Shown piece after piece: positions 27,706 to 62,531 of a DNA stretch of 64,000 bases (position 1 is its first letter; each line of letters starts with the position of its first letter). The position numbers and the translations under genes were made by a program. The DNA lies in the NCBI GenBank assembly GCA_030429045.1, contig JAUIEA010000004.1, forward strand, positions 1 through 64,000, written 5' to 3'. The stretch is from Bacteroidia bacterium (GTDB lineage: Bacteria; Bacteroidota; Bacteroidia; Chitinophagales; Saprospiraceae). The notes below the pieces were generated by a model. It ran no database searches and had not been told where the DNA came from. It saw only the letters and a program-made list of their open reading frames with translations.

Positions 27706-27742
27706 CTGCGTTATGATTCCCTGATCCCGTAAGAAATATGCC

Positions 27743-28483: not shown

Positions 28484-28486
28484 CGC

Positions 28487-29427: not shown

Positions 29428-29458
29428 TTGAAAATTAGCGTTTAAGTGAATATATTTG
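29428..29458 (+). promoter_or_regulatory. Predicted Bacteroidota promoter of the TAC module
   Basis: TTG (29428-29430) is separated by 20 bases from TATATTTG (29451-29458), an exact match to the Bacteroidota TAnnTTTG -7 element. The predicted transcript start near 29465 would lie downstream of the GTG start of the toxin gene, implying either a later start codon or a second promoter. Confidence 0.5.
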
Positions 29459-30389: not shown

Positions 30390-30404
30390 GTGGAATGAAT
30401 CACT

Positions 30405-30896: not shown

Positions 30897-30978
30897 GTGA
30901 ACCATTCGGTATAATTTAACTTCTCATTGTTCTTTTTCAACAGCTTTCTGGTATTGTGCCCACAGCAATTGAATAAGT

Positions 30979-41730: not shown

Positions 41731-42354
41731 ATGGCTACAAAGGTGAATGCACAGAGCTACTTCGACCGGATCGGAAAGGCATGGGATGAAAGTGACATCA
41801 AGAAGAGGCATCCGGAATGGGCCTGGTCGTTGGCTGCTACGCAGTTGTATACGGATAGTTTGGTCATTGTGGGCTTCAACTGGGGAGCAGCCCAAATGGA
41901 GAAGTATGATCCGCAAGAGAGCCTGCCCGATCAGCCATGGCTACAGCAGGATCTCGGAACACTGTCTCGTACGATTCCCTATCTGCGCAAATATTTTCCG
42001 GATATCGACCTGGATAAAGTCGTGCAGACCAATTACTGTTTTTTCCGGTCGCCCGAGCAAAGCGACATTACATCGGATGACATTGACCGTTGCCATCCCC
42101 TATTCATGGATTTGCTGAAAGATCTTCAACCAAAGCAGGTCTTGATCTTTTCATCCGTCCTACGAGACCGGATCAAGGACCAGCTTTCCAATAGAAAGAT
42201 TGCCGAAATTCCTTCAGGTGATCGAACAGCTATAGCCATCCGGGCTTCCTGGTCCATTGGTGGAAGGGAGATTCCGGTTGGGATTGTGCCTCACCCCAAC
42301 AATGCGATTACAGGGGAGGCAAGAGAGAAGTGTTGGGAATGGCTGCGAAAGTGA
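41731..42354 (+). CDS. Uncharacterised protein, possible uracil-DNA-glycosylase superfamily
   Basis: A 207-residue protein. SLVIVGFNWGA, then VQTNYCFFRSPEQSD, DIDRCHPLFMDLLKDLQPKQVLIFSS and a late VGIVPHPNNA match the order of the UDG-superfamily landmarks (first strand/loop; N-x-x-x-x-R; C-x-P...L-x-P-k-v-i; HP motif), especially family 4/5 enzymes. Whether it removes a modified base or only shares the fold is unknown. It is preceded by a purine-rich stretch (AGGAGA) suitable as a ribosome-binding site. Confidence 0.55.
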   Translation: MATKVNAQSYFDRIGKAWDESDIKKRHPEWAWSLAATQLYTDSLVIVGFNWGAAQMEKYDPQESLPDQPWLQQDLGTLSRTIPYLRKYFPDIDLDKVVQTNYCFFRSPEQSDITSDDIDRCHPLFMDLLKDLQPKQVLIFSSVLRDRIKDQLSNRKIAEIPSGDRTAIAIRASWSIGGREIPVGIVPHPNNAITGEAREKCWEWLRK

Positions 42355-42378
42355 GGGCGGACTAAATTGAGGACAAAC

Positions 42379-43266
42379 ATGGAGAGTGGATTGAACGAAG
42401 ATTGGGCTAAAAAGGCATTAGATGAACTTTTTAATCTGACTACTACCTATAGGAGTTCAGCGAGTTATCACGAATTGTTCAAGTTTATAGTTCGATTCAG
42501 AAGTTATTCTCCGTATAACGCAATGCTTATCCATCTTCAACGATCGGGAGCGAGTTTCGTAGCGCCAGCTTCTAGGTGGCTTCGTGATTATCAAAGAGCA
42601 ATAAGGCCCGGTGCGAATCCAATAGTTATCCTGCAACCCTTCGGGCCAGTCATGTTTGTGTACGACGTAGCGGATACGTTACCTCTTCCTGATGCTATGC
42701 CATTACCAAAAGAAATTTATAGCCCTTTTGAAGTGCGTGGAGGTAAAATTGGTAAAGAGTTTGAAATAACCGTCCAAAATGCAAAACGGGATGGGATCCT
42801 GGTTCACTTGGAACGAGCCGGTTCCCAAAGCGCTGGGAGTATTCGTAGCACTACGCGTGGAGGTTCTATTCCATTTTTAGTAAGAAAAAAGCCAAAGGAA
42901 GAACACGTTATGGTGCCGATAAAGTACGATCTTCTGGTAAATAGTGCCCACCCAAGGGAAGTCCAATACGCTACACTGGCTCATGAATTGGGGCACTTGT
43001 ATTTGGGGCATCTAGGGAGCCCCAACAAGAACTGGTGGCCCGATAGGGGCAAGCTGGATTTTTCTTCACGTGAATTTGAAGCTGAATCGGTTAGCTATCT
43101 TGTTTGTCTTCGACTTGGATTGGATACACCATCTGAAAAGTATTTAAATGGTTATTTGTCAAAAAAGAAGGAAGTGCCACAAATCAGCTTAGAGGCAGTG
43201 TTGAGAGCTGCGGGACTCATTGAATCAATGGGCCTATCCAGAATGAAGCCAAGAAATTATGGCTAG
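42379..43266 (+). CDS. ImmA/IrrE-type metallopeptidase domain protein
   Basis: A 295-residue protein with the zincin motif HELGH (His at ~202) in YATLAHELGHLYLGH and a downstream EFEAESVSYLV that supplies the third ligand, as in ImmA/IrrE (COG2856) peptidases. ImmA-type proteases cleave repressors or antitoxins after damage or phage cues. It begins an AT-rich segment unlike the preceding genes and lies 117 bases upstream of the SNF2 helicase operon, where it could regulate or belong to the defence cassette. ATG 42379 is used rather than a TTG four codons earlier. Confidence 0.82.
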   Translation: MESGLNEDWAKKALDELFNLTTTYRSSASYHELFKFIVRFRSYSPYNAMLIHLQRSGASFVAPASRWLRDYQRAIRPGANPIVILQPFGPVMFVYDVADTLPLPDAMPLPKEIYSPFEVRGGKIGKEFEITVQNAKRDGILVHLERAGSQSAGSIRSTTRGGSIPFLVRKKPKEEHVMVPIKYDLLVNSAHPREVQYATLAHELGHLYLGHLGSPNKNWWPDRGKLDFSSREFEAESVSYLVCLRLGLDTPSEKYLNGYLSKKKEVPQISLEAVLRAAGLIESMGLSRMKPRNYG

Positions 43267-43383: not shown

Positions 43384-46300
43384 ATGTCAATCGAAATAGG
43401 TCAGATCGTAAAGAACTTAGTTGCTAATGAGGCTGTTGTGATTAATCACATTCAGCCTTTGGGGGATATGATTTCTATAAAGTATACTGGTATTAATTCA
43501 AGTCGATCCAGTACGAAGATAATATCTGCACTTGATTTTGATTCATTGGAGATATTATCTCAGGAAGGAAAATTCAATTTTAAAGGAGATCCTGCGAAGT
43601 TTAGATTGTTTGCTGAGGCTGAACGGATCAATTCTGCTTATCAATTTGATCCGTTATTTGCCGTAAATTGCAGTATTGTGGATCCTTTGCCGCACCAGGT
43701 TGAGGCTGTGTATAAATTCTTGTTGCCTCTTCCTAAAATTCGTTTTCTTCTTGCCGACGATACAGGAGCAGGAAAAACAATTATGACAGGTCTTCTAATC
43801 AAGGAATTGATGATGAGAGGACTTGCTGAGCGAATACTAATTGTCACTCCTGGCGGTTTGACCAAGCAATGGCAAGAGGATGAGTTAGGAATTAAATTTA
43901 ATATCCCATTTACGTTAGTCAACAGGGCGTTATTTTCATCAGATCCAAACGTTTTTCATTCCACTCAAAAGATAGTCACATCAATCGATTTTATTTCCCG
44001 TGAAGATGTTTTAAATGTGGCCAGTAATTCTCATTGGGATTTAATAGTATTTGATGAAAGCCATAAGTTGTCTGCCTATGAATACGGTAGCAAGCAATAC
44101 CTGTCGCAACGCTATAAAGCAGCACAGGTTTTATCGCAACAGTGTGAACATATTTTGCTGCTTACAGCTACGCCACACCGTGGACGAACGGATACATTTA
44201 AAAAGCTTCTTCAGCTTCTTGATGAAGACATTTTTGCAACAGATGAAATTGCTTCTACAAGGATAAAGGAACTGGAGCATAATGGCATTAATAAGTTCTT
44301 TATACGTCGATTGAAGGAAGACATGAAGGATTGGCAAGGTAAACCGCTCTTTAAGGATCGATTTACCAAGACTGTGGCCTACCAATTGACTCCAGAGGAA
44401 AAGGAACTGTATGATGCAGTTACAAAGTATTTAACGAAGAAGAAAGAGGAAGCATCAGAAACAAGGAATATTCATGTTTCCCTTGCGCTAACGGTGATGC
44501 AGCGGAGATTGGTAAGTTCGATTTTTGCAATTAAAAATACACTGGAACGAAGATGGGGCGCTTTGCAGGGAATTATTGATGAGGTGAATAAAAACCCGAA
44601 CCTATGGAGTCAGCGGCACAAACTCGAAGGCTTTGATGTCGACAATATCGAAGATTATGAGGATCTTGAGGATGATGAGCGAGATGCGTTGGATGGCATA
44701 TTGTCTGATCCTCGAAAGTTCAAACTTTTTACGACGGCAAAGAGTATTGGTGAGATTCAGCAGGAGGCCACTGAGGTGAAGAAGTTGTTTGATATGGCTC
44801 AATCACTTTATCACCGAAATCAAGAGGAAAAGAAGTTCCAGGAGTTGCAAGAGTTGCTTAAATCCAATGGTGTAGTGGACAAGGGGGAGAAGCTGGTTAT
44901 CTTCACCGAACATAAGGATACTTTATTATATCTGGAGGAGCGACTCACCAAGCGAGGAGGATATAAAGTGGCTACTATTCATGGCGGTAAGAGTGTAGAT
45001 GAGCGTAGGGATGCGCAATGGGCTTTCGCAAAACCCGATACCCAGATCTTGATTGGAACTGATGCAGCCGGTGAGGGTATCAACCTTCAGTTCTGTCGTT
45101 TGCTGATCAATTGGGATATTCCTTGGAATCCTAACCGATTGGAACAGCGGATGGGACGGATTCACCGATACGGTCAGAAGCAGGATGTACTCGTCTTTAA
45201 TATGGTAGCGAGCAATACTAAAGAAGGTAAAGTATTGGAACGTTTATTGACCAAGCTGGATATTATTCGGGAAGGAATGGGTGATGATCGAGTCTATGAT
45301 GTCATTCAAGACGTACTGGAAGGTGTTGGATTGGATGATATTATCGAATCTGTATTTAATGGTCGGGAGACAGCATTGGATAGATTCTTATCTCAAGATG
45401 ATGCAGCACTTAAATTGAAGTTCAGAGAAAAGATCGATGAACAGAAGGATAAATTGGCACATAGTGTTGTGGATTATAAGGATGCAAGGACCTTAAAGGA
45501 AGACTCGGACGAAAAGCGTCTCCAGCCTATTTATATTCGCTTATTCTTCGAGAAGGCATTCCAGAATCTCGGTGGTTCATTTACAGAGTTAAGACAGTCA
45601 ATATTCAGGATAGATAAGATGCCTGACAAAGTTATAGGCGAATTGAAAGATACCTATAAAATTCACTTTGATGCCATTAAGTCCATCCAATTTTGTTTTG
45701 ATAAACAGATCTTCCTTGACTATCAAAGTATTGGTGATCTGGGCCATGTTCATTATATCAATCCGGGGAATCCTGTCTTTGACAGCTTGGTTGCTGTGGT
45801 ACGAAACCAGTACCGAGAAGATATGATCAAAGGAACTATCTTGATTTCCCCTGATGATAAGGAAGATTATTTTGCGTTCTTTGTGAAGAGTCAGATCGTT
45901 GACAATCGACCAAGCAAGGTTGATGATAGTGTCGCAGATGAGAGACTGGTTATGGTATATCAATCCGGGAAAGGTGAATTTCATATTACATCACCAGCAA
46001 AATTTATTGATTTACATCCACCTATGGAATTCACCAAGCCCATTGCTCCCCCAGAAGTCATTGACACCAATGAAGTGATTCAATGGAGTTTTGAAAGAAT
46101 AACCACGCAACAATTTGAAGATACAAAGTCTCATGTGGCCAAAGACGCGGCTGATCGTAGGGGCTACCTTGAATCGGCGTTTACCCAGGTCATCATGGAC
46201 TTGCAAATATCCATACATGAATTGCAAAGTAAATTACTCTTAGGTGACAATAAAGTACAGGAATTGATCTTGAAGAAGCAAGAGCGTATCCACGAGTTGA

Positions 46301-46818
46301 TCGAGAAAAAGAGAGACCGCCTTGAACGTCTGGATTTGATGACACAACTCAATCCAAAGGCACCGGAGGTGTTAGGATGTGCCTATATAGTTCCACTTAC
46401 GCAGGTGGAATACGTCGGACATTATGGTATGAGTAGAGATGACGAGGCTGAGGCGATTGCTATGAAGGCCACCATGGATTATGAATTGGAACATGGATGG
46501 GAGCCACAAGACGTAAGTGCCAACAACGAAGGCTATGACGTGAAAAGTATCAGCCCAGAGCAACTGAAGCGCTATATTGAAGTGAAAGGTCGAAGTGGCC
46601 AAGATGGCAGTGTGATGCTCAGTGAGAACGAGATGAACCGTTTGGCTCAGTTAGATGATGCTGCCTGGTTGTACATTGTGATGAATTGTAAGAGCAAACC
46701 AGAGCTATACCGGATTCAAAATCCAGCAAAGGCACTCAGATTCGAATTGAAATCAAAAGGCGTACAATACTTTCTGCCGATGGCAGAATGGAAACAAAAA
46801 GTGGATCAACATGCCTAA
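43384..46818 (+). CDS. SNF2-like helicase with C-terminal DUF3883 (DrmD-like)
   Basis: A 1144-residue SF2 helicase. Walker A is LLADDTGAGKTIMTGLLIKEL (~125-140), the wording typical of DrmD-type defence helicases. The Walker B box is VFDESHK (~223), motif V/VI appears as GTDAAGEGINLQ and RMGRIHRYGQ, and a C-terminal DUF3883 domain (~1050-1110) contains RYIEVKGRSG, a PD-(D/E)xK-like core. It likely translocates on DNA to detect or process phage genomes with its partners. The DUF262 gene overlaps its last 8 bases. Codon use is AT-rich compared with the chromosome. Confidence 0.9.
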   Translation: MSIEIGQIVKNLVANEAVVINHIQPLGDMISIKYTGINSSRSSTKIISALDFDSLEILSQEGKFNFKGDPAKFRLFAEAERINSAYQFDPLFAVNCSIVDPLPHQVEAVYKFLLPLPKIRFLLADDTGAGKTIMTGLLIKELMMRGLAERILIVTPGGLTKQWQEDELGIKFNIPFTLVNRALFSSDPNVFHSTQKIVTSIDFISREDVLNVASNSHWDLIVFDESHKLSAYEYGSKQYLSQRYKAAQVLSQQCEHILLLTATPHRGRTDTFKKLLQLLDEDIFATDEIASTRIKELEHNGINKFFIRRLKEDMKDWQGKPLFKDRFTKTVAYQLTPEEKELYDAVTKYLTKKKEEASETRNIHVSLALTVMQRRLVSSIFAIKNTLERRWGALQGIIDEVNKNPNLWSQRHKLEGFDVDNIEDYEDLEDDERDALDGILSDPRKFKLFTTAKSIGEIQQEATEVKKLFDMAQSLYHRNQEEKKFQELQELLKSNGVVDKGEKLVIFTEHKDTLLYLEERLTKRGGYKVATIHGGKSVDERRDAQWAFAKPDTQILIGTDAAGEGINLQFCRLLINWDIPWNPNRLEQRMGRIHRYGQKQDVLVFNMVASNTKEGKVLERLLTKLDIIREGMGDDRVYDVIQDVLEGVGLDDIIESVFNGRETALDRFLSQDDAALKLKFREKIDEQKDKLAHSVVDYKDARTLKEDSDEKRLQPIYIRLFFEKAFQNLGGSFTELRQSIFRIDKMPDKVIGELKDTYKIHFDAIKSIQFCFDKQIFLDYQSIGDLGHVHYINPGNPVFDSLVAVVRNQYREDMIKGTILISPDDKEDYFAFFVKSQIVDNRPSKVDDSVADERLVMVYQSGKGEFHITSPAKFIDLHPPMEFTKPIAPPEVIDTNEVIQWSFERITTQQFEDTKSHVAKDAADRRGYLESAFTQVIMDLQISIHELQSKLLLGDNKVQELILKKQERIHELIEKKRDRLERLDLMTQLNPKAPEVLGCAYIVPLTQVEYVGHYGMSRDDEAEAIAMKATMDYELEHGWEPQDVSANNEGYDVKSISPEQLKRYIEVKGRSGQDGSVMLSENEMNRLAQLDDAAWLYIVMNCKSKPELYRIQNPAKALRFELKSKGVQYFLPMAEWKQKVDQHA

Positions 46819-48508
46819 CCAAACCGAAACAATTAGAAAGTTCATCAAATGCCTTAATAATAAGGATGAACAAGGAGGCTTCTGGCTTCCAAACATACAA
46901 CGTCCATTCGTCTGGAAGAAAGATCAAATCGAGCGATTGTATGATTCAATTTTACGAGAATACCCTATTGGAACTTTGCTCATATGGAAGACAAAAAGTG
47001 AATTAAGGAGAAGAAAGTTCATCGATAATTTCAAAAGTGGAATAAGCCTATCTAATTTCTATATTCCTCAGGACAATGCTCAGAAAATGATGGTATTGGA
47101 TGGCCAGCAACGGCTTCAGTCCCTATTCATTGGCCTAATGGGAAGTTATGATGGAGAAGAACTTTATATTAATATTCTTAGTGGTGACATAGTGGCTCCT
47201 GAGGATATCAAATTTGACTTTAAATTCAAGCCTAAATCTAGTACACCTTTTCCATTTGTGCTTTTTAAGGAGTTGGTATTTACTGATAACAAACCAAAGG
47301 AAATTGTTAAACAGATTGTATCTATAAATGAAGTTTCCGAGAAACAAGAAGATAGAATTTATGACAATGTCGAGTTGATTCGAGAGGTATTTTGCACCCA
47401 AGAGAATATACTTTACCAGTTGGTTGATAGCGTTGACCGTCCAAATACCTACACTGAAGAGGATATAGTTGAAATTTTTATCCGGGCAAATTCCGGAGGC
47501 ACGCCATTGGGAAAATCTGACCTCCTCTTTAGTCTTCTTACAGCTAGTTGGGAAGAGGTTGAGAATAATATGGATGAATTGCTTGATGACTTAAATAGAA
47601 CGGGCTATAAATTTGATCGTGACTTCATCTTAAAAATTTCTTTGGTTTTATTGGACAAAGGGGCTAAATACGAGATAAAGAAATTTAGACTTCCAGAAGT
47701 AAAGGAGGGAATCGAAAAGAACTGGCAATCAATTGCTGATGCAATACGCTATGTAAAGGACTTTATTTATGGTAAGACATTTTTGAAGACAGACAAAACT
47801 ATACCTTCATATGCTAGTTTGATTCCAATTATCTACAGTAAATATCATTTTCCGAAGACTTGGGGTGATAATTTGGAAGCAGATCTTGTTGATTATTTAA
47901 TTAAGGTTAATCTTACAGGTGTTTTTGGAGGTGTATCTGATAGTTTCACCGATGCTTTGGTCTCAACAGTGAAAACTAATGAAGGATTTGTAAAGACTGA
48001 AATATTTGGCGAAATCCGATCAAAGGGAAAGAGCATGGAGATTACTAAAGAAAGTTTGCTAAGTTATCATTTTTCATCTAAGGAATTACACTTGTTGCTA
48101 AACCTTTGGTACGGCTTTAATTACCAGCCATCATGGGAGCAAAACAAGCCTCAGGTAGATCATATATTCCCGCAAAGCGCATTAAAAAGTATTAAAATAT
48201 CGAATCCAGAGACAGGTAAAATGAACATCATGAAATACAAGTGGTGGGATCGAGATCAGATTGCAAATTTAATGCTTCTTACTGCTCGTGAAAATGGAGC
48301 AGGCAATAAATCCGATTCCTTGCCGAATGTTTGGTTCTCAAATAAAACTGAAGATTATCTCAAGATGCACCTTATTCCAAATGATCCCTCGCTTTGGGAA
48401 TTAGACCGATATGAGGATTTTATCATAGAGCGGAAGAAATTACTCATTGATCAGTTTGAGGACATACTGTATATACCTAAAACTGAGTCAGAAACAAAAG
48501 TCGAATGA
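46811..48508 (+). CDS. DUF262 and HNH (GmrSD/DUF1524-type) nuclease
   Basis: A 565-residue protein. The DUF262 core has IQRPFVWKKDQIERLYDSIL and LDGQQRLQSLF (~96), the intact NTP-site motif. The C-terminal HNH-type region has QVDHIFPQSAL (~448) and IANLMLLTARENGAGNKSDS. Type IV GmrSD enzymes use these two parts to cleave modified phage DNA. It overlaps the upstream helicase gene by 8 bases and the downstream methyltransferase gene by 4, so it is an integral operon component rather than a passenger. Confidence 0.9.
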   Translation: MPNQTETIRKFIKCLNNKDEQGGFWLPNIQRPFVWKKDQIERLYDSILREYPIGTLLIWKTKSELRRRKFIDNFKSGISLSNFYIPQDNAQKMMVLDGQQRLQSLFIGLMGSYDGEELYINILSGDIVAPEDIKFDFKFKPKSSTPFPFVLFKELVFTDNKPKEIVKQIVSINEVSEKQEDRIYDNVELIREVFCTQENILYQLVDSVDRPNTYTEEDIVEIFIRANSGGTPLGKSDLLFSLLTASWEEVENNMDELLDDLNRTGYKFDRDFILKISLVLLDKGAKYEIKKFRLPEVKEGIEKNWQSIADAIRYVKDFIYGKTFLKTDKTIPSYASLIPIIYSKYHFPKTWGDNLEADLVDYLIKVNLTGVFGGVSDSFTDALVSTVKTNEGFVKTEIFGEIRSKGKSMEITKESLLSYHFSSKELHLLLNLWYGFNYQPSWEQNKPQVDHIFPQSALKSIKISNPETGKMNIMKYKWWDRDQIANLMLLTARENGAGNKSDSLPNVWFSNKTEDYLKMHLIPNDPSLWELDRYEDFIIERKKLLIDQFEDILYIPKTESETKVE

Positions 48509-51500
48509 CCCTAGCCAAAAAACTCATCGAAGTGGCTATGCCAATCAAGGAAATATCGGCAGAAAGTGTACGAGACAAATCCATCCGGCACGGGCATATA
48601 TCTACCCTGCACTTGTGGTGGGCAAGACGACCATTACCTGTCTGTAGAGCTGTAGTATTTGCCAGTTTGGTGCCTGATCCGGAGGATGAGCATTGCCCAC
48701 AAGCTTTCAAGGATGCTTGTAGGATGTTGTTGGGCGAGCCATTCGCCTTGGATAATGGAGGCAATATATTGGATTGGTATGAACCTTATGACGACATCCC
48801 CTATACCTCGGCCATTGACCGTATGGAGGATACCCTGCGCAACAGGTTGTTGATGTTCATAGGAAAGTTCTCAGAAAAGTACATCCTGGCTGCGAGGCAA
48901 GGTAAGACAGCGGCAGCAAAAGATATGCTGTCAGATGCCAGCCTGATTAAGTGGGACAATAAGAATAATAATAACATCATTGGTAAAGCTCGAAAGCTGA
49001 TATGGGTTGCCCACAATGCTTCTAGCGGCAAGACAGCCAAAGTACTGCTTGCAGATTTTGATGCAGCTTACAAAGCCATAAAAACAGCAGAAAATGAACT
49101 CTATAGCATAGCTGACCGCCATTTAGCAACCAAGCAAGTTCAAGCTAACGAAACTGCGTTACAAAAAGCCATTGATGACTTTCAGGACAAAATGCCGAAG
49201 GTATTTGACCCTTTTGCTGGTGGTGGGGCTATTCCTTTAGAATCGGCAAGATTGGGCTGCAAAACCTACGGCAACGACATTAACCCGGTAGCCCATATCA
49301 TACAAAAAGGAAGTTTGGAATTTCCACAGAAATATGGTAAGCCGATTACTTACTCAAATGCCGAGTTTACTTTACTATATGGTGCCGAAACGTTAAAGAG
49401 TATTCCTAATGAATGGAAAACCTTCTATGCTGGAAATACCACTGGAGTGCGGATTCCAAACAGACTGAGTTTTGATGTAGAGTTTTATGCCAAAAAACTT
49501 CTATCTGAAACGGAAAAGTTAATTGGTCATCTGTATCCCACTGATGAAAAAGGAAATAAGCCAATCGCCTATTATTGGGCAAGAACAGGATTATGTTCCA
49601 ACCCGAGTTGTAGAGCTCAAATTCCTTTATTAAAAGGGTTTTATCTAGTTAACACAAGCCAAAAGCATATTTACTTAAAGCCACAAATAACTAATAATGA
49701 AATAAATTTTGAAATCAGAATTGGGAAAACCAATGATATGGGCTGGATGGGTAAAAGCCTTACCTGCCCCTGTTGTGGAGCCACTACTTCGGTCAAGGAC
49801 CTAAAACAGCAGTCATTGGATGGTAAGCTGAATGAGAGATTGATTGCAATTATCGAACATTCAGAAAATGGTAAGGCCTATCGCCTCCCTTTTGAATCGG
49901 AATTGAAAGTTTCAAAAATCAAAGAAGAGGCTTTTTATCAATCCATAATACCTACCGAAACTATGAAAGATATTCCTGATCTAGTCAGTGGTAGAGGCTG
50001 GGGAATTTCAAAGTGGTCAGAGTTGTTCTCTAAAAGACAACTCCTTTTAATGCAGACATTAATTATGCAATTGAATGAATTAAAAGCTGAATTGAATACT
50101 GACAATTCAGAATATTCTAAAGCCATAATTACCTATTTATCCATTTTGATAGATAGGGGATCTGCCATCAACACTTCTTTTGGTAGATGGGATGTTAGTC
50201 GTGAAAATGTTCAAAGTCCATTTTCAAAGCAAGCAATCCCGATGATGTATGACTATCCTGAAGCAAATCTATTAGGTAATTCCTCGGGCAGCTTATTAAA
50301 TCAACTGGAATGGATAAAGCGATATATAGAATCAGAAAATGGTTATCCGTTTTCAGTAAATTTAAATAACGCCAGTAGTGGTGACAAATCTCAGTTTAAA
50401 GATAAGTTTCTAACAGCAGTAATTACCGACCCACCATATTATGATGCGATTGCTTATGCTGACCTTTCTGATTTTTTTTATGTATGGCTGAAGAGAACTT
50501 TAGGAGATATATTTCCATTGAATTTCGCAACGCCAAACACCCCTAAAACAGAAGAATGTACTGCATTAAAACATCATCATAATGATAGTAAAGAAGAAGC
50601 TAAAGTCCATTTCGAAAGGAAACTAACGCAAATATTTGATGCCATTGAGCATCAAACTTCAGATATTGTGAGTATTATGTTTGCTCATCAGAGTACGGAG
50701 GCATGGACAACCCTTTGCAACTCTATTCTTGGGGCTCGAATGAATATTACAGGTTCTTGGCCTGTTGATACTGAAATGGCAAACCGAAGTTTGGGTCTAG
50801 CAGGTGCTGTTTTAGCTTCCTCAGTCACAGTATCCGCCAGACCTTCTCAAAGACAAGGGTACGGTACCTATAAAGATGTCAAAAAAGCAATTGAAATAAC
50901 AGTTGCCAAAGAGGTAGAAGAACTCTACCGCTTAGGCTTTAGAGGAGCAGATTTATTAACAGCATGTTTTGGTCAAGCTGTTAGTGATTTTGGCAAATAT
51001 GAAAAAGTAGAAAAAGCAGATGGCAGTGAAGTTACTGTGGCTGAATTATTAGAGATGGCTCGTGAGAGTGCCTTTAATGCTTTATTAAAAGGCTTTGACG
51101 GGGATGACTTTACTAAGTTCTACATCGGATGGTTGCAGCTCTACGGCTTTGTAGAAAGTGACTTTGATGATGCGGCCAAGTTCAGCCGTGTAGGGTTGAG
51201 CATCAATGTTCAGGATTTGTTCACAGATCACATTCTTATCAAAAATGGCAACAAACAAGCTTTAGGTGGTTTTGCCGATAGACTAGCCACTAGTAAGAAC
51301 CTGGGAGAAAAAGCCAACAGTCATTTGATAGACCAGGTGCACAGAGCCATGCATTTGTACCAAGGCAGCAATCGGGGCAATTTGTTAGAGTTCATCCATC
51401 GGGTAGCCTCTAATCCAGACAATCCGTTTTGGCGGGTACTTACCTCGCTTTGCGAGATATTACCAGGTGGCAGTGAGGATCATAAACAAGCTACTGGCCT

Positions 51501-51585
51501 AATCACCAACAAAGAAAGTCTCATTCGTGAAAGTGCAACAGCACAGCGAGACAAGGCATCACAAGGAGGTCTTTTTGACTTATAA
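48505..51585 (+). CDS. DUF1156-domain DNA methyltransferase
   Basis: A 1026-residue protein starting with the DUF1156 signature (IEVAMPIKEISAESVRDKSIRHGHISTLHLWWARRPL). SAM-binding motif I is VFDPFAGGGAIPLESARLGC (~232-251), and the catalytic motif IV is DPPYYD (~642). Two Cys pairs (CSNPSC ~363, CPCC ~420) form a probable zinc ribbon. It presumably methylates adenine in host DNA to mark self, in step with the helicase and nuclease encoded in the same operon. Length is normal for the family. Confidence 0.9.
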   Translation: MTLAKKLIEVAMPIKEISAESVRDKSIRHGHISTLHLWWARRPLPVCRAVVFASLVPDPEDEHCPQAFKDACRMLLGEPFALDNGGNILDWYEPYDDIPYTSAIDRMEDTLRNRLLMFIGKFSEKYILAARQGKTAAAKDMLSDASLIKWDNKNNNNIIGKARKLIWVAHNASSGKTAKVLLADFDAAYKAIKTAENELYSIADRHLATKQVQANETALQKAIDDFQDKMPKVFDPFAGGGAIPLESARLGCKTYGNDINPVAHIIQKGSLEFPQKYGKPITYSNAEFTLLYGAETLKSIPNEWKTFYAGNTTGVRIPNRLSFDVEFYAKKLLSETEKLIGHLYPTDEKGNKPIAYYWARTGLCSNPSCRAQIPLLKGFYLVNTSQKHIYLKPQITNNEINFEIRIGKTNDMGWMGKSLTCPCCGATTSVKDLKQQSLDGKLNERLIAIIEHSENGKAYRLPFESELKVSKIKEEAFYQSIIPTETMKDIPDLVSGRGWGISKWSELFSKRQLLLMQTLIMQLNELKAELNTDNSEYSKAIITYLSILIDRGSAINTSFGRWDVSRENVQSPFSKQAIPMMYDYPEANLLGNSSGSLLNQLEWIKRYIESENGYPFSVNLNNASSGDKSQFKDKFLTAVITDPPYYDAIAYADLSDFFYVWLKRTLGDIFPLNFATPNTPKTEECTALKHHHNDSKEEAKVHFERKLTQIFDAIEHQTSDIVSIMFAHQSTEAWTTLCNSILGARMNITGSWPVDTEMANRSLGLAGAVLASSVTVSARPSQRQGYGTYKDVKKAIEITVAKEVEELYRLGFRGADLLTACFGQAVSDFGKYEKVEKADGSEVTVAELLEMARESAFNALLKGFDGDDFTKFYIGWLQLYGFVESDFDDAAKFSRVGLSINVQDLFTDHILIKNGNKQALGGFADRLATSKNLGEKANSHLIDQVHRAMHLYQGSNRGNLLEFIHRVASNPDNPFWRVLTSLCEILPGGSEDHKQATGLITNKESLIRESATAQRDKASQGGLFDL

Positions 51586-51597
51586 AGGATTTGAATC

Positions 51598-54500
51598 ATG
51601 AAACAGATACAAATTGACAATTTATTTAAAGCTTTCGGCTTGTTTATCGAAGCTTTTAGGCCATATGTGGTTGAATTGTTAAGCAAAGAAGCTGGTGATA
51701 AGTGGCCGGCTGAATTTGTAAAGGCATTATACCCCCAGCAAGTTGAGAATTGGAATCAAGGACTACGTTCAGGTTCGGAGCCCATGTCTTTGATAGATTA
51801 TCCGTATTTAAAGAGTTTTGCTCTCAAATATCGAGATGAATTGCGTGCCGATTTTGGTAGAGATGTAAATAAATTGGCAACGCGGCTGGAAACCATCTAT
51901 GATGTACGCAACAAGTTGGCTCATTTTCAGGAAATTAGTGAGGATGAATATACAGAGGCATTCATCAATATGAAGAGCATTGCCAGAGCCATTCAAATGG
52001 ATGAATTGGAAGAGAGCCTGGCAAGACTTCAGGAATCCAAAGAAGACCACCTATCAGCAAGCTCAGCGCTCCGGGATAATATTCTTCTTGAACATGGAGC
52101 TTTGATACCTTGGTTTAGAGTGGTGGCTCCTCATATGGATATCAAGCAAGGGCGATTGGATGAATCTGTGTTTGCAGCCAACCTGGCTGAAGTGGCATTA
52201 GGTCACGGCAGGGAGATTTACAGTAACCCGGGGGTATTCTTCTCCAAAACATACTTCACTGCGGGACTGAAAAACGTTGCCAAAACTGTTTTGAAAGGAT
52301 TGAACGGAAAAGAGGATGCGGAGAATCGTGTCATTTCCCTTCAAACAGGTTTTGGAGGTGGGAAGACGCATACCCTTATTTCGCTTTACCATCTAAGTAA
52401 ATGGGGCAAGAATGCCATCAACTCCAACTATACCAAAGACTTATTGGCCTACACGGGTCATCCAGAGTTTGATTCAGCCAATATTGCTGTTTTTACCAAC
52501 ACCACCAACGACCCTGCCAATGGCAGAGAGCCTGAGGAGGGTGTTCACATCCAAACCATTTGGGGCGAACTGGCCTATCAATTGGGTGGGAAAGCCGCTT
52601 ATGAGATTATTCGTAAGAATGATGAAGGACTCATTGCTCCAGCTGGTCTATTCAAGCAAGTTCTAGCACAATGTAAGCCTGCTCTCATATTGATTGATGA
52701 GTTGGCAGATTATTGCGTAAAAGCATCGGCACGAAGGGCGGGTAGCAGCAGTTTGGCTGACCAGACTATTAGCTTTATGCAGGAGCTGACAGAAGCTGTA
52801 TCAGGCACGAACAATTGTGTAGCTGTGATTACCTTGCCTGCGAGTGTTCAAGAAGTTGGCAACACTCCAGAGGCACAGGCTATTTTGAGCTCTTTGCAAA
52901 AACGTGTGAGCCGGGTAGGTGCTGATACGCAACCCGTTGCGGATGAAGAGATTTATGAAGTCATTCGAAGAAGGTTGTTCGAGGATATTGGTGATGCGAT
53001 TACGATAGAGTCCATAGCCGATCAATACATGGCCATGTATCAGGAATATTGGTCAGAACTTCCACCAAACGCCAATAAGTCCGATTACAAGCAGAAGATA
53101 ATAAAATCCTACCCTTTTCATCCAGAACTAATTGATGCTTTTAGAGTAAGATGGGCAAGCCATCATGATTTTCAACGAACAAGAGGAGTCTTACGCTTGT
53201 TGGCCGCCATAGTCAGTGACTTATGGAAGCGTCAACAGTCTCTACCTGGAGGAAATGCCATGATACATACGGGTGTGGTGAATTTCGCCAACTTAGATGC
53301 ACTATCAGGCCAGCTAAAGAAACTATATGGTAATGGCTATGACTCGGTTATTTCAGCTGATGTGGCAGGATCTTCATCCAATGCATTTAAGGTTGACAGC
53401 AACAAAAAGGAGTATGGAGACTGGTATTTGACCCAGGCCATTGCCTCCGTCATTCTAATGAACTCTTTTGGAAGTGAAGGAACGAATAAGGGCATTTCAG
53501 TCCCTGAATTAAAATTGAATCTGCTAGTTCCACATGGCTTCAATCATAACAGTATTAATGGCGCTCTGGATGAATTGGAAAGTAATGCATACTACCTATA
53601 TTATGCACAATCTTCTTCTTCAGGTAAACGGTATTGGTTTCATACCAAACCAAACATCAATATCCTTATCAATCAGGCAAAGAGTGATGTAAAAGCTGAG
53701 GACATAACAGCAGAAATTATTAATCGTCTGCACCAAAAGAGCAAGAATATCAATGGGTTTAATGTATTGGTCAACCCAGCTGAAGATATACCGGAACAAC
53801 TAAAACCAACACTTTTGATATTGAGCCCTATTCATTTGGCAAACCCAAATGGACTAAATGGAAAGACGTTGCCACTTATTGAGCAGATAGCCACTAAAAA
53901 GGGAAATAGCGAACGTATTTATAGAAATACGATGCTCTTTTTGATTTGTTCTGAGCTTGGGATTGGAAAGCTGCAATCGGATGTAAGGGAATACCTGGCT
54001 TGTCAGAAGATCAACGCTGAATACAACAATCAGTTGGAACAAGATCAAAAAACTGATTTGCGAAAGAGAATGGAAGAGGCATCAAAGAGTTCAGACGCTT
54101 CTCTTGTAGCTGCGTATTCCATCGTCACAAAGTTTTCCGTAAAAAATGGAACAGACGTTCTTCAGATTAGGCAGTTTAGAGACAGTATTGATGCACAGAT
54201 CAATACCTATATTTTGGATGCCTTAAAAGAAGAAGAGTGGCTCTTAGATTCGATTGGATTGAGTACACTGGGTAATAATAACTTGCTACCAACCTTAGAA
54301 CAACCCATCAAAGCAAAAGACATTTATGAAGCTTTCCTGCGTTTTGATGATAAACCCATGATTACTGGGCCCGAGGCTGTTTCAAGAAGCCTTCAGAAGT
54401 ATTGCACCAATGGGGAGTATTGTGTTGCCACAGGTGATGGTGCAAATTTTACCAGGTTCTTTTTTAAAGAGGCTATTCCATTTTTTGATGTGAATGATGT

Positions 54501-54900
54501 TACTTATTGGTTAGTAGATAAGAGCCTAATGTCTTCGCCCCAATCTGGTAGTCCTTCAACCCCTACTGCTACCGGATATTCAATAACAGTAGTTCCCGGT
54601 GTAGTTGAGGCCCCTGTTGAACCGCATGGCTCAAGGCCAGGACAGACAACCACAGGAGCAAGGCAATTAAAGTCAGTTACAGTAAGTGGCAATGTTCCGT
54701 TAGAGCGATACACAGAGTTGTTCAACTATTTCATTACACCATTTGCTATGAGTGGTAATAAGATTGAAATAGAAGTAAGATTTAAGATCAAGTCTACAAG
54801 TAGCAGTCCATTAGATGAAAGCAGGCCTCAATATAAGTCTGCAAAAGAGGCCGCAAGGCAATTGGGATTGAATTTTGAGGAAGAAGGCATGGAGGGCTAG
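51598..54900 (+). CDS. DUF499-domain P-loop ATPase
   Basis: An 1100-residue AAA-like ATPase. An N-terminal Swt1/HEPN-like region (RNKLAHFQEI near residue 103) precedes the Walker A LQTGFGGGKTHTL (~248-256) and Walker B ALILIDELADYC (~362). It ends in a region including a SITVVPGVVEA... segment and a small domain. DUF499 (COG1483) ATPases co-occur with DUF1156 methyltransferases and SNF2 helicases in defence islands and resemble BREX BrxC/PglY in layout. The gene starts 12 bases after the methyltransferase stop. Confidence 0.87.
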   Translation: MKQIQIDNLFKAFGLFIEAFRPYVVELLSKEAGDKWPAEFVKALYPQQVENWNQGLRSGSEPMSLIDYPYLKSFALKYRDELRADFGRDVNKLATRLETIYDVRNKLAHFQEISEDEYTEAFINMKSIARAIQMDELEESLARLQESKEDHLSASSALRDNILLEHGALIPWFRVVAPHMDIKQGRLDESVFAANLAEVALGHGREIYSNPGVFFSKTYFTAGLKNVAKTVLKGLNGKEDAENRVISLQTGFGGGKTHTLISLYHLSKWGKNAINSNYTKDLLAYTGHPEFDSANIAVFTNTTNDPANGREPEEGVHIQTIWGELAYQLGGKAAYEIIRKNDEGLIAPAGLFKQVLAQCKPALILIDELADYCVKASARRAGSSSLADQTISFMQELTEAVSGTNNCVAVITLPASVQEVGNTPEAQAILSSLQKRVSRVGADTQPVADEEIYEVIRRRLFEDIGDAITIESIADQYMAMYQEYWSELPPNANKSDYKQKIIKSYPFHPELIDAFRVRWASHHDFQRTRGVLRLLAAIVSDLWKRQQSLPGGNAMIHTGVVNFANLDALSGQLKKLYGNGYDSVISADVAGSSSNAFKVDSNKKEYGDWYLTQAIASVILMNSFGSEGTNKGISVPELKLNLLVPHGFNHNSINGALDELESNAYYLYYAQSSSSGKRYWFHTKPNINILINQAKSDVKAEDITAEIINRLHQKSKNINGFNVLVNPAEDIPEQLKPTLLILSPIHLANPNGLNGKTLPLIEQIATKKGNSERIYRNTMLFLICSELGIGKLQSDVREYLACQKINAEYNNQLEQDQKTDLRKRMEEASKSSDASLVAAYSIVTKFSVKNGTDVLQIRQFRDSIDAQINTYILDALKEEEWLLDSIGLSTLGNNNLLPTLEQPIKAKDIYEAFLRFDDKPMITGPEAVSRSLQKYCTNGEYCVATGDGANFTRFFFKEAIPFFDVNDVTYWLVDKSLMSSPQSGSPSTPTATGYSITVVPGVVEAPVEPHGSRPGQTTTGARQLKSVTVSGNVPLERYTELFNYFITPFAMSGNKIEIEVRFKIKSTSSSPLDESRPQYKSAKEAARQLGLNFEEEGMEG

Positions 54901-54901
54901 A

Positions 54902-55702
54902 ATGTTGAATGGGTTATCAAGTTGTTTGCGTTTTTCTTTGAAATGGATTCTATCAAGTAATAACAATTGCCTTATGCTTTCTGAAAGTGAAATACTGCTA
55001 CGTGGAAAGATTAAAAACGTTGTTTTGGCACTGGATGATGGCGATGACCACTATCCTTCTGGTCATTGGTTGAATAGCACGGGAGTCCGAATGTATTCAG
55101 AGGATCGTGTTCTTTTGGCCGAGGAGTTGGTCGATTCATTTCAGGATGGATGCTATTACCATAAGGATGCAGATCGAATTAATGCGCTTCTTACACCTGT
55201 TACAAAGCCATTCGTCATTATTGATTATCGATTGATTTCAAGGCATATTGTAAAATTATTTCCGATTAGAAAATATCCAAAATTTAATCCATTTGCCTCG
55301 TTTGATGATCGAGTTAGTCAATTACGTCTAAGGGTTTTGGGGAGCCTGCTGAATATATCAAATTATACGAATATTGATTTAAATATTACAAATGAGACAG
55401 AATTGAATAATTATTTGGATCTGTTGCTGGATTTATCATATGATTTGTATGCCTATCCCTGGCCTAATGCAATTCTTAGACCTCAGGTGATGAAGAGGAA
55501 TATATATGGTGGAAAGAGCAGAATAGCTGCTCTGCGAGTTCTGAAAATTCTTGCTTTGATTAGGAGGAATGTAATTGATATGAATACGATTGCTTCTCAT
55601 GGTGAGTATTTTAACAAGGATCATACTATTGATATATGTAAGTTATTGGCCGTGCACCCAATTTTGCGACTCGATTACAGAATTTGTTCGGATAAGATTT
55701 AG
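54902..55702 (+). CDS. Uncharacterised last gene of the SNF2/DUF1156/DUF499 operon
   Basis: A 266-residue protein whose ATG lies one base after the DUF499 stop, so it is translationally linked. Its N-terminus is basic and hydrophobic (MLNGLSSCLRFSLKWILSS). The remainder is mixed alpha/beta with HHYPSGHW-like and DDGDDHYP aromatic/acid segments and a Leu/Ile-rich helical C-terminus. No family is recognised. Position suggests an accessory subunit of the same system. Confidence 0.65.
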   Translation: MLNGLSSCLRFSLKWILSSNNNCLMLSESEILLRGKIKNVVLALDDGDDHYPSGHWLNSTGVRMYSEDRVLLAEELVDSFQDGCYYHKDADRINALLTPVTKPFVIIDYRLISRHIVKLFPIRKYPKFNPFASFDDRVSQLRLRVLGSLLNISNYTNIDLNITNETELNNYLDLLLDLSYDLYAYPWPNAILRPQVMKRNIYGGKSRIAALRVLKILALIRRNVIDMNTIASHGEYFNKDHTIDICKLLAVHPILRLDYRICSDKI

Positions 55703-55783: not shown

Positions 55784-58303
55784 TTGAAATTGTCATTCTC
55801 ACATCCAATTTTCAACACGCCCTGGCTTTATGACCTTCCCCTTGAAGCATGGGCAAAGGCATTCGATCTGGCAGAAGTGGTATTGAGACGCCTTGCTCTG
55901 AAAGCTGATGATCCCCGGTTGGCGATCACCTTCCGCCAGGATTCTACGGAGCGGTTTGTTGTGGTCTTCGGTGGAAAGTACGCAGGGGGATTCTACCAGG
56001 AGAACGGTCAGGTCTTTTTACGATTCGTAGTGGCTGGTGACTTTGACCTGGGTATAGATGATCGACTTCTTGATCTAGAAGAGCCTTTCAAGGATGGTCA
56101 GACAAGATTGGTCTATATGGCCCTGGAGGATTGGCAGGGGATCAATGACCCGTTTTTGGTGGAGGTGGTCAATGGAGCCAGGCTGGCCTTATCTCGGGCA
56201 GGTCGGTCCAACCAGCGAAAGCATCACGTGGATATGCTCTATGACGTGATCATGGATCCCAACGCCCGGAAGGAATGGATGGACTGGATCGTTCTGTCCC
56301 CGCAGGAGCGGATCATTGCAGCACATAAGTCCAATCTGCGTGAATCCGGGAATAAGGAAGAATGGTATAAATGGGAATTGGCAGCCCGTTTTCAACAGCA
56401 TTGGGATCTGGAAGCTCCGGATTTTGGGGAGATGCTGTCCCGTCTGGATTTCAGTAATCTGCTCTACAACCAGAGTATTTCATTCATCAACGAGGCCAGG
56501 GTTCACCCGGAAGAAGCACGGGCCTATTATCGCGCCCTGTTTGATGAATCAGTTCCGCTGGATGACCGGCTGAAGCAATGCAAGCAACATGGTGATGCCC
56601 TGATCCAGGCATGGCATCCCGGCTGGAAGAATGCAGGGCAGGATGAGCGTTGTCTGTCTGTATTCCTGAGTTTTCACGACCTGGAACACTATGCCCCCTA
56701 CAAAGCCTCCTTTTATGTGGCCTATTGTCGTTATCTCGGTATCTCACCGAAACGTGCGGGGCTGCGGTATGGCCATTACCTGGAGCTGGTAAACGATCTG
56801 GTGGCGAACTATATAACAAGGGATGAAGAGCTGATCCGATTCTATCAGGAGGCCATTTCCGGCAACGAAGCCTATGCCCGTGATCCACAGCATCATTTGC
56901 TCGCGCAAAATATCCTGTACACCGTATTTGATCAACTGTGGAATACCTCGCCGGAGGATGATTCCGAAGAAACCTTTGCTCCGGATATAGTTCCAAAAGA
57001 AGAACCTATGCATGACTCACCTGTGCTCAACCAGATCCTGTATGGTCCTCCCGGAACGGGAAAGACCTGGCGCACCATCCGTCAATCTGTAGCTATTGTC
57101 GATCCGGATTATTTTCAAAAACACAAGGATGAACCGGACAATCAGGCCATCAAGAAGCGATTTGATGAGCTATTGATCCGACCAGATGATGGTGGAAAGG
57201 GGAGAATTGCGTTCACCACCTTTCACCAGAGCATGAGTTACGAGGATTTTGTGGAGGGGATCAAGCCGGAAGCGATAGATGGGCAGATCACCTATGCAAT
57301 TAAGCAAGGTATTTTTCGGCAGATCTGTGATCTGGCAGAGGCAAAAAAGTTCATATTAAATTTTGATTCTCATTATGATGAATGGATCGTTGAGATCCAG
57401 GAATCAGAGGGTCTAGACTTAGTTACACATAAACTTAAGAAACCCTTTCACGTTGATGTAAATGCAGCGGGTTCATTTGTTGTGACTCCAAAGAATGGAG
57501 CAATCAGTTCTCAAGTGATTTCTAGAGATCGATTTAGAAAGTATATCTATTCTGGCCAAATTCAAAGATCGCGTTCATATCTCACACCAATAGCGGAAGA
57601 GTTTCGTAGAAAGTTTTCTCTTGTAGAGGAGCCCAAAACCTATGACCGTTTCGTTCTAATCATTGATGAGATCAACAGGGGTAATGTGGCCGGCATCTTT
57701 GGTGAATTGATCACCCTCCTGGAACCGGATAAGCGAGCAGGCGCAAGAAATGAGCTGACCATCACCTTGCCCTATTCACGGGATGTGTTTCAGGTGCCTG
57801 CCAATCTATACGTCATCGGCACAATGAACACGGCGGACCGCAGTGTGGAAGCCTTGGATGCGGCTTTGCGGCGGCGGTTCCACTTTTCGGAAATGCCTCC
57901 GAAACCTCGTCTTCTGGCAGGAAAATTCATTGGCGAGTATTCCCTCGAGGCGATCTTATCCCGGATCAACGAGCGTCTTTTGTGGCTCAAGGATATGGAT
58001 CATACCATAGGCCATGCCTGGTTTATGGAGCAGGACGCTCCCGGGTGGAAGGAGATCAGGAATGTGTTTCGAGACAAGATCATTCCCTTGCTTCATGAGT
58101 ACTTCTTCGGCGATCCCGGTCTGATCGGACTGGTGCTTGGACCGGGTTTTGTGAAAAGGTTGGAGATGCCCGGTCAATCACCCTTTGCCTCATTCGATCA
58201 TCCCGGCAGGGATCTGGTCCATGACAAGGTCCGTTATACCGTGATCATGCCGGAGAATGAAGAGGAGATGACCCGGGCGATCCATCAATTGATGTCAAAC
58301 TGA
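55784..58303 (+). CDS. mcrB: McrB-like AAA+ GTPase subunit with AT-rich insert
   Basis: An 839-residue restriction subunit. An N-terminal recognition region (1-~400) is followed by an AAA+ module: Walker A YGPPGTGKTWR (~421-428), FHQSMSYEDFVEGIKPE, Walker B LIIDEINRGN (~624), and sensor/arginine segment IGTMNTADRSVEALDAALRRRF (~680). The family hydrolyses GTP and drives the McrC nuclease on modified DNA. Between Walker A and B, residues ~525-610 (FILNFDSHYDEW ... EFRRKFSL) form an insert whose codon use is visibly more AT-rich than its flanks. The start is a TTG at 55784. Confidence 0.88.
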   Translation: MKLSFSHPIFNTPWLYDLPLEAWAKAFDLAEVVLRRLALKADDPRLAITFRQDSTERFVVVFGGKYAGGFYQENGQVFLRFVVAGDFDLGIDDRLLDLEEPFKDGQTRLVYMALEDWQGINDPFLVEVVNGARLALSRAGRSNQRKHHVDMLYDVIMDPNARKEWMDWIVLSPQERIIAAHKSNLRESGNKEEWYKWELAARFQQHWDLEAPDFGEMLSRLDFSNLLYNQSISFINEARVHPEEARAYYRALFDESVPLDDRLKQCKQHGDALIQAWHPGWKNAGQDERCLSVFLSFHDLEHYAPYKASFYVAYCRYLGISPKRAGLRYGHYLELVNDLVANYITRDEELIRFYQEAISGNEAYARDPQHHLLAQNILYTVFDQLWNTSPEDDSEETFAPDIVPKEEPMHDSPVLNQILYGPPGTGKTWRTIRQSVAIVDPDYFQKHKDEPDNQAIKKRFDELLIRPDDGGKGRIAFTTFHQSMSYEDFVEGIKPEAIDGQITYAIKQGIFRQICDLAEAKKFILNFDSHYDEWIVEIQESEGLDLVTHKLKKPFHVDVNAAGSFVVTPKNGAISSQVISRDRFRKYIYSGQIQRSRSYLTPIAEEFRRKFSLVEEPKTYDRFVLIIDEINRGNVAGIFGELITLLEPDKRAGARNELTITLPYSRDVFQVPANLYVIGTMNTADRSVEALDAALRRRFHFSEMPPKPRLLAGKFIGEYSLEAILSRINERLLWLKDMDHTIGHAWFMEQDAPGWKEIRNVFRDKIIPLLHEYFFGDPGLIGLVLGPGFVKRLEMPGQSPFASFDHPGRDLVHDKVRYTVIMPENEEEMTRAIHQLMSN

Positions 58304-58310: not shown

Positions 58311-59540
58311 ATGGCCAGGTTGATCCAGCTCTTCGAGCATGAAACGATGCTGGTAGGACGTCCCTACCCACCGGATCAGGCTGTCTTCGAAGACCGGGAC
58401 CTGCTACGACTGCAGCTATTTCATCAGCAGACGGAGCTCAACTATTTCCATCTGCTGCATCGTGGAGTCCGCTTTCGACACTACGTCGGGGTACTTCAAT
58501 TCGGAGACCTGACGATCGAGATCCTCCCGAAGGCTGATCGTACATCCAGTGATCCATTGCGATGGCAATCCTTCTTGATCCGCATGCTGCGCCGGGTGTA
58601 TGATCTTCCCCTGAATAGCCCGGATCGGGCTTCGGTTCGTCCGACCCATCATCCGGTCCTGGAGCTTTTCTTTGAATCGTTTTTACATGAGACAGAGATC
58701 CTGATCAGACAGGGATTGGTCAGACAATATGTGCGCAGGGAACAGACTACCGGTGCGTTGAATGGTCGCTTGCTGATCCACCGGCAGGTGCGGGAGCATG
58801 TGGTCCACAAAGAACGATTTGCGGTAGAGCGAGCCACCTATCAGAAGAAGCACACCATCAATCAGATCCTGTACAGCACCATTCGACGGATAAGCCAATT
58901 TGCCGCACATCCGATCTTACGGGAGAGGGCCAGTCAGATGGGTCTGAGCTTCGAGGATTGGGTGGATCGCAAATGGCTGGCAAGTGACTTTGATCGCCTC
59001 CGGTTTAACCGTCGGACAGAGCGTTACCGACGTGCCATCGAATTGGCCCGGTATATTTTGTTGAGCATCCATCCGGATGTCCGATCGGGTGGCACACCGA
59101 TGCTGGCTTTGTTGTTTGATATGAATGTCTTGTGGGAGAAGTATGTGGTCGGCGAGTTACGCAGGCAATTGCCCCATGGGTGGAAGGTGAGGGAACAGTC
59201 GCCTCGGAAGTTCTGGGAGTCTGATTCATCCTCTGCTTGGTTGAAACCGGATATTTTGATCACCTCGCCGGAGGGCAGGACGGTCGTATGGGATACCAAA
59301 TGGAAGATCCCCAAGGACGACAAACCTTCTGAGGAGGATCTGCGGCAGATCTATGCTTATCTGGCTTACTTTAAAGCGGAGGAGGGATGGCTGGTGTATC
59401 CATCCGCTGGTGAGACGGTCCAGAAAGGTGGAGGATTTCAATTGCCGGGTGTGGAGAAGGAGGCTGGGATGGTGATGTTATCGTGTGAGGGAGAGATGAT
59501 CCTGCTGCCAGCTGTTCTAGATAGGCCGAGATTCGCTTGA
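58311..59540 (+). CDS. mcrC: McrC-like nuclease subunit
   Basis: A 409-residue partner of McrB, 7 bases downstream. The N-terminal DUF region (HYVGVLQFGDLTIEILPKAD) is typical of McrC. The C-terminal PD-(D/E)xK nuclease contains LKPDILITS and VVWDTKWK, the D...D-x-K catalytic triad. McrBC translocates on DNA and cuts between modified sites. Composition matches McrB flanks and is GC-richer than the neighbouring operons on both sides. Confidence 0.9.
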   Translation: MARLIQLFEHETMLVGRPYPPDQAVFEDRDLLRLQLFHQQTELNYFHLLHRGVRFRHYVGVLQFGDLTIEILPKADRTSSDPLRWQSFLIRMLRRVYDLPLNSPDRASVRPTHHPVLELFFESFLHETEILIRQGLVRQYVRREQTTGALNGRLLIHRQVREHVVHKERFAVERATYQKKHTINQILYSTIRRISQFAAHPILRERASQMGLSFEDWVDRKWLASDFDRLRFNRRTERYRRAIELARYILLSIHPDVRSGGTPMLALLFDMNVLWEKYVVGELRRQLPHGWKVREQSPRKFWESDSSSAWLKPDILITSPEGRTVVWDTKWKIPKDDKPSEEDLRQIYAYLAYFKAEEGWLVYPSAGETVQKGGGFQLPGVEKEAGMVMLSCEGEMILLPAVLDRPRFA

Positions 59541-62469: not shown

Positions 62470-62531
62470 ATCGGAAATTAAAAAACAAAGTTTCTTACGT
62501 TAATAAAAAGTCTTAATTACTTCAGTCGCTT

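Follow-up and report, generated by a model that had tools for sequence, protein, structure and literature searches.

A probable Hma restriction-like locus with an embedded HEC-05/BrxU-type GmrSD gene and a 3′-terminal orphan in a Saprospiraceae genome

The window analysed here, a stretch of 64,000 nucleotides from a bacterium of the family Saprospiraceae (assembly GCA_030429045.1, contig JAUIEA010000004.1), contains five consecutive same-strand genes, which very probably represent a helicase-methylase-ATPase (Hma) restriction-like system with a GmrSD-type nuclease gene embedded between the first two core genes and an orphan gene at the 3′ end (Table 1). Coordinates of the open reading frames (ORFs) confirmed the close packing noted in an earlier annotation made from the letters of the window (the sequence-only reading): genes 1 and 2 overlap by 8 bases, genes 2 and 3 overlap by 4 bases, and genes 3 and 4 are separated by 12 bases. 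The fifth ORF, taken at its longest, spans 54875-55702. The AT-rich composition common to the five genes was also borne out. Their G+C content is 36-42%, as compared with 49-58% in four nearby genes (those at 41731 and 39698 and the McrB-like and McrC-like genes); the M78 gene directly upstream has 44%.

Pfam agreed with the SNF2-DUF3883, DUF262-HNH, DUF1156 and DUF499 domain calls made for genes 1 to 4. The product of gene 1 contains the SNF2-rel_dom, Helicase_C and NOV_C domains (NOV_C 70.9 bits). NOV_C corresponds to DUF3883 and may be the PD-(D/E)XK-type nuclease domain located at the C-terminus of Hma helicases. In PADLOC the best match was the HmaA model PDLC00659 (680.9 bits, residues 3-1114), and the motifs GAGKT, DESH, QRMGRIHR and GYDVK...EVK were found, the last of which would suit such a nuclease domain. 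The sequence-only reading had labelled this helicase DrmD-type and had regarded the operon as an unnamed DISARM-like system from which DrmA, DrmB and DrmC were missing. A DISARM variant of this kind would account for the matches of the helicase to DrmD models (best 439.6 bits, the runner-up in PADLOC) and, via its helicase part, to a DrmA model (253.1 bits). However, the HmaA model was far ahead, the score against the NCBI DrmD equivalog (391.4) was below the cut-off of 610, and the best model for the methylase of the operon was HmaB. MZB (PF09369), presumably the mark of DrmB, had no match anywhere in the genome. The PADLOC matches listed for the window proteins included no DrmB and no DrmC, and the lone DrmA match was HmaA itself; DrmA and DrmC were sought among the window proteins only. 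The DrmD label was therefore dropped, whereas the claim that the three Drm proteins are missing stood genome-wide for the DrmB mark and, for DrmA and DrmC, among the matches listed for the window proteins. Membership in DISARM was rejected, and we regard a DISARM variant without drmABC as practically excluded.

Gene 3 matched two HmaB models nearly equally, PDLC00661 (448.5 bits, strongest over residues 224-895) and PDLC00660 (446.6 bits, 227-1015), and has DUF1156 at residues 11-61. Motif I (DPFAGGG) is at position 235 and DPPY at position 642; DPPY favours N6-adenine methylation. The longest stretch of low conservation, approximately residues 401-600, lies between these two motifs, as expected for a putative target-recognition region. 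The best match of gene 4 was the HmaC model PDLC00662 (465 bits, residues 168-959). Its product contains DUF499, an N-terminal HEPN_Swt1 domain overlooked in the sequence-only reading, and the motifs GFGGGKT, LILIDE and RNKLAH. An N-terminal extension of HEPN size was found in five of the nine HmaC relatives compared (L090-L095, L049, L050 and L096), so that even close relatives differ in having it. Judged by these matches, which extend over the greater part of each gene, and by the catalytic motifs expected of each protein, genes 1, 3 and 4 are HmaA, HmaB and HmaC, and the Hma core is complete. The operon DNA had no megablast match among plasmids, and the scan of viral contigs revealed no HmaB relatives.

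Hma was named in 2021 as a candidate system on the basis of 1,638 three-gene operons (PMC8565338). In PMC12839542 it is placed among DUF499-centred BREX-related (BR) systems; for Type-1 BR that paper counts 1370 taxa with HEPN fusions and finds the helicase fused to a nuclease in 79% of taxa. The domain make-up of the present locus fits the Type-1 class. Modification-linked defence, as proposed in the sequence-only reading, agrees with what the same paper predicts for the helicase/methylase/ATPase gene set, and the proposed chemistry was roughly right. Membership in BREX itself was rejected: there is no PglZ at the locus, and the sole PglZ match in the genome is a 520-residue frame on another contig (C23; the contig of the window is C177).

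Gene 2, situated between hmaA and hmaB, has the Pfam domains GmrSD_N and GmrSD_C. Its best PADLOC match was the model of Hma-embedded candidate 5 (HEC-05, PDLC04151; 325.1 bits), in which residues 5-554 align end to end with positions 25-594 of 600. The only PDB sequence matches at E≤0.01 were 7p9k and 7p9m (E 8.1e-42), which we take to be BrxU structures. HEC-05 is reportedly defined in a 2024 preprint by Payne. PMC11411939 equates HEC-05 with BrxU, and the motif definitions used here (QR, DGQQR and FxxxN of DUF262, and the His-Me motif of DUF1524) were taken from it. Gene 2 contains IQR, DGQQR, FIRAN and VDHIFP, i.e. the DUF262 motifs as well as the DUF1524 His-Me motif, and it overlaps both hmaA and hmaB. 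HEC-05 and HEC-06 were found embedded in Hma and were described as working independently (PMC11411939), antiviral activity was reported for several Hma-embedded candidates including HEC-06 (PMC12988326), and GmrSD-type HNH enzymes are listed as auxiliary effectors in BREX and BR systems (PMC12839542). The combination of Hma with an embedded GmrSD-type gene is already in print and is not a new system. The novelty suggested by the sequence-only reading is thereby lost, the whole array being the described Hma system plus one embedded gene, an outcome which that reading had itself named as counting against it.

Relatives of gene 2 were detected in 65 of 396 genomes of the order, five of them among the 24 HmaB-positive ones (G000, G427, G528, G542 and G655); the handle numbers indicate that the gene 2 and HmaB scans used one common sample. 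Matches covering at least 500 of the 565 residues occurred in 10 genomes, and only two of these, the window's own and G542, were HmaB-positive. The remaining eight long matches were merely 24-35% identical, thus it is the GmrSD family, not the exact clade, that is seen living without Hma. On plasmids, the two closest relatives (54% and 47% identity) had no hma gene in the fetched stretches; for the second of them, one of the two flanks covered only 3 kb. Taken together, the GmrSD nuclease appears to move independently of the Hma core.

For a survey of hma neighbourhoods, HmaB relatives were sought in 296 genomes of the phylum, where 29 genomes had a match, often a weak one, and in the 396 genomes of the order, where 24 did. 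Surroundings were fetched for part of these (18 and 16 stretches) together with seven plasmid records, and were mapped by blastp. The resulting maps cover 41 loci besides the window (L034). Of these, 22 complete A-B-C loci entered the counts, four that have only B and C served solely for the B/C junction, and 15 were set aside (L035, L036, L040, L041, L047, L055, L056, L058, L059 and L100-L105) because they had no recognised hma core, had another gene order, or were incomplete or distant. There is dependence among the 22 loci: a single genus contributed L043, L044, L045 and L057, a single genome both L043 and L050, and L093 and L097 are near-identical. In L053, L057 and L097 hmaB is broken or interrupted; the interruption in L097 (genome G594) consists of about 970 bases (9622-10593), and the gene is intact in L093. 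Part of the junction ORFs were scanned against family libraries, the pair in L044 was assigned by blastp to that of L043, and L037 and L038 were assigned by record annotation.

One relative, L091, has the order A-GmrSD-B-C identical to that in the window, with identities of 71, 55, 62 and 63%, respectively, and its GmrSD protein matches HEC-05 with 350.4 bits. The search for conserved arrays that the sequence-only reading had suggested thus yielded the same four-gene array once, and the DUF262 gene recurs in the same place in one of the 22 other operons instead of being absent from all of them. In 10 of these 22 loci the A/B junction is empty (≤80 bases). The other 12 junctions are filled with HEC-05 (L091), Septu PtuAB (4 loci: L043, L044, L045 and L095), PDC-S02 nucleases (L052 and L057), toxin-antitoxin or PIN genes (L037 and L038) or genes without a clear family (L046, L049 and L051; the matches of L051 were weak, best 45.6 bits). 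Assigned defence or toxin-antitoxin genes thus occupy nine of the 22 A/B junctions, HEC-05 being one of the nine. L044 also carries an NsnA-like DUF262 protein. The B/C junction is filled in 5 of the 22 loci, including NsnABC in L090 and L092 and PDC-S01 in L095. Because the A/B junction is empty or variously filled, the GmrSD nuclease looks like exchangeable cargo.

These data bear on the possibility that the locus is a single integrated system and GmrSD serves its helicase-methylase-ATPase core as a dedicated effector nuclease. Such a role would be in line with the overlap of the GmrSD gene with its neighbours on both sides, with the equal arrangement in L091, with the similar G+C content of all five genes and with the proposal of PMC12839542 that in Type-1 BR systems compensation can come from nucleases encoded nearby, among them those of HNH type. 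But there is no gene between A and B in 10 of the 22 other complete loci and unrelated cargo in others, HmaA carries a nuclease-like domain and motif of its own, two plasmid GmrSD relatives stand without hma genes in the stretches fetched, and HEC-05 and HEC-06 are reported as independent (PMC11411939). The survey disfavours GmrSD as an obligate effector, and we consider an integrated system very improbable. The assignment of GmrSD as the attack arm in the sequence-only reading met the same difficulty, since HmaA has the nuclease-like domain and 21 of the 22 other loci lack a HEC-05-type GmrSD at this junction; nor was its view of the five genes as a single integrated unit supported.

Trees of the three core proteins were discordant. 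In the HmaA tree the window grouped with L090 and L092 (support 99/99), and groupings of the window with L050 (p 1.4e-6) or with L091 and L095 (p 1e-4) were rejected. In the HmaB tree the window grouped with L050 (95/97); HmaB rejected the window with L090 (p 0.002) and with L091 and L095 (p 0.003), and weakly rejected the window with L090 and L092 (p 0.03). The HmaC analysis left out the HEPN part and two outgroups, included L096 and used a model simpler than that applied to HmaA and HmaB. It rejected the window with L090 and L092 (p 7e-6) and with L050 (p 1.5e-6), and tolerated the window with L091 and L095 (p 0.44), leaving the position of the window without resolution. These p-values are post hoc, the groupings having been chosen after the first trees were seen, and the loci are few. 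A fair reading of the discordance is that it suggests exchange of subunits between Hma loci, which is possibly new. A bolder and, in our estimate, unlikely extension would make Hma a modular cassette, in which A, B and C recombine independently between loci at the junctions that take up cargo (A/B, B/C and 3′ of C). Specificity and passengers would then change while the motor-nuclease stays constant, and Orf5, the product of the fifth gene, would be new unrelated cargo of the 3′ slot.

The sequence-only reading had let the fifth gene overlap hmaC. This overlap exists only if translation starts at the TTG at 54875 (275 residues). From the ATG at 54974 (242 residues) the codon score is 0.142; the two remaining forward frames score -0.323 and -0.575, and the segment 54875-54973 scores -0.036. 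Codon scores thus favour the ATG, which leaves a gap of 73 bases after hmaC, and the overlap is probably a start-codon artefact. Orf5 had no match in Pfam, PADLOC, NCBIfam, PHROGs or PDB, was found only as itself in the 296 and 396 genomes, and had no relative in plasmids or viral contigs. The contig scans used six exact peptide patterns, which are blind to distant relatives, and their single match was the window's own DNA (100% over 19126 bases). A single-sequence fold, with a mean predicted local distance difference test score of 32.7, was uninformative.

A same-strand gene follows hmaC within 105 bases in L090, L091 and L095 as well, matching pAgo (297 bits), PD-T4-1 (57.5) and EAD11 (38.9), respectively. 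In several other loci, e.g. L043, L046, L049 and L094, the first ORF downstream of hmaC lies on the opposite strand. The 3′ end after hmaC may be a third cargo slot. A role for Orf5 within the system, as a regulator, an inhibitor or an extra effector, is conceivable though doubtful: its strand, its proximity to hmaC, its equal AT-richness and its coding signal would suit such a role, as would the genes directly following hmaC in the three relatives, whereas no relative of Orf5 stands beside the other hma loci examined or occurs in the 296 or 396 genomes, and a 3′ gene that varies among relatives and lies on the opposite strand in several points to a cargo slot at most. The description of an unknown protein closing the operon stood in so far as Orf5 is an orphan in these searches; its membership in the system is unproven.

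Our preferred explanation, with a probability of about 0.92, is a Hma restriction-like system encoded by hmaA, hmaB and hmaC, with a HEC-05/BrxU type IV enzyme as A/B cargo and an orphan gene at the 3′ end. Several observations weigh against it in part. In L091 both the junction occupied by GmrSD and its orientation are preserved, perhaps through selection for linkage, and the 8- and 4-base overlaps permit translational coupling and perhaps joint function. HmaB has low-conservation blocks also outside the proposed recognition region (281-320, 0.37; 121-160, 0.47). Descriptions of its chemistry differ, the enzyme being an m5C methyltransferase in PMC8565338 and an N6-adenine methyltransferase in PMC12839542.

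Working of the locus can be envisaged from homology and the cited papers. HmaB would methylate adenine in its target motif and so mark self DNA, and the HmaC ATPase may assemble or license the complex, its HEPN domain perhaps acting as a last-resort RNase. HmaA would translocate along unmarked DNA and cut it by its C-terminal nuclease-like domain. In the embedded GmrSD enzyme the DUF262 NTPase domain would read cytosine modifications and the His-Me (HNH-type) nuclease would cut, which would cover phages whose modified DNA escapes Hma. Since GmrSD is expected to read modified cytosine, host DNA carrying HmaB adenine methylation alone should be safe. The locus is a clear case of nested defence, and an apparently new system here resolves into a described one. 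It raises the question whether subunits pass between Hma systems as specificity subunits do between type I systems, and whether an enzyme directed at modified cytosine provides complementary cover when nested in a system that presumably methylates adenine. Complementary cover was reported for BREX plus BrxU (PMC10952713).

Table 1. Features of the Hma locus and its surroundings in the window
Feature	Coordinates	Strand	Description
hmaA	43384-46818	+	SNF2/SF2 helicase-translocase with C-terminal NOV_C (nuclease-like); 1144 aa
GmrSD gene (embedded)	46811-48508	+	HEC-05/BrxU-type GmrSD type IV restriction enzyme; 565 aa
hmaB	48505-51585	+	DUF1156 DNA methyltransferase, probably N6-adenine; 1026 aa
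hmaC	51598-54900	+	DUF499 AAA+ ATPase, HEPN_Swt1 at N-terminus; 1100 aa
orf5	54974-55702	+	orphan protein; 242 aa if started at the more probable ATG; system membership unproven
McrB-like	55784-58303	+	AAA_5/McrBC families (Pfam); neighbour outside the Hma system
McrC-like	58311-59540	+	AAA_5/McrBC families (Pfam); neighbour outside the Hma system
Reverse transcriptase gene	60119-61837		best model RT_UG19
Reverse transcriptase to TmtA/Sacsin-like gene	60119-63998		likely another defence system
Second DUF262 gene	39698-41629		643 aa
Gene without clear family and M78 gene	41731-43266		directly upstream of hmaA
Short element	24372-24613		at the synteny break

Downstream of the operon lie the McrB-like and McrC-like genes, which score below the NCBIfam cut-offs of the McrB and McrC models and have 49-54% G+C, unlike the Hma genes. 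Next come the reverse transcriptase (RT_UG19, 383.8 bits), a small RTas1465-like gene and a TmtA/Sacsin-like gene truncated where the window ends; these are likely to be another defence system. Of the genes upstream, the second DUF262 gene (G+C 58%) encodes a protein whose N-terminus resembles HEC-06 and similar models, with none among the matches listed beyond residue 88. Between it and hmaA are the genes of a 207-residue protein without a clear family and of an M78 (ImmA/IrrE-type) peptidase; the ORFs of the other examined loci included no relatives of the two, which probably form a separate system. Synteny with a genome of the same genus (G636; stretch compared 20615-31400) ends near 24378, thus the operon sits beyond the break, in a region that also has the McrBC-like, UG19-type reverse transcriptase and TmtA-like genes. 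The short element at the break has many matches in G636 and is a possible edge of a variable island; no repeats were found within 24000-25800. At the matching site of G636 one of six ORFs matched a PADLOC model (ATPase-type, best mad3, 97.6 bits) and five were unmatched.

With DISARM the present locus shares a related SNF2 helicase and a methylase; it differs in that the genome has no MZB-domain protein and the helicase is closer to HmaA than to DrmD. Type-3 BREX has homologous ATPase, methylase and helicase proteins (PMC12839542), but the present locus has no PglZ. Hma (PMC8565338), with the domain details given for Type-1 BR in PMC12839542, has the same SNF2 helicase with a C-terminal nuclease-like domain, DUF1156 methylase and HEPN-DUF499 ATPase in identical order, to which the present locus adds the embedded GmrSD gene and the orphan 3′ gene. 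HEC-05/BrxU shares the whole-length model match and the site inside the hma genes, although the present protein is a distant relative, 27.6% identical to Escherichia fergusonii plasmid proteins, E. fergusonii being the source species of BrxU (PMC12409352). TgvAB (PMC11411939) is likewise a modification-dependent GmrSD-type enzyme inside a modification-based restriction operon, but consists of two proteins within a type I restriction system, whereas here a single protein is embedded within Hma.

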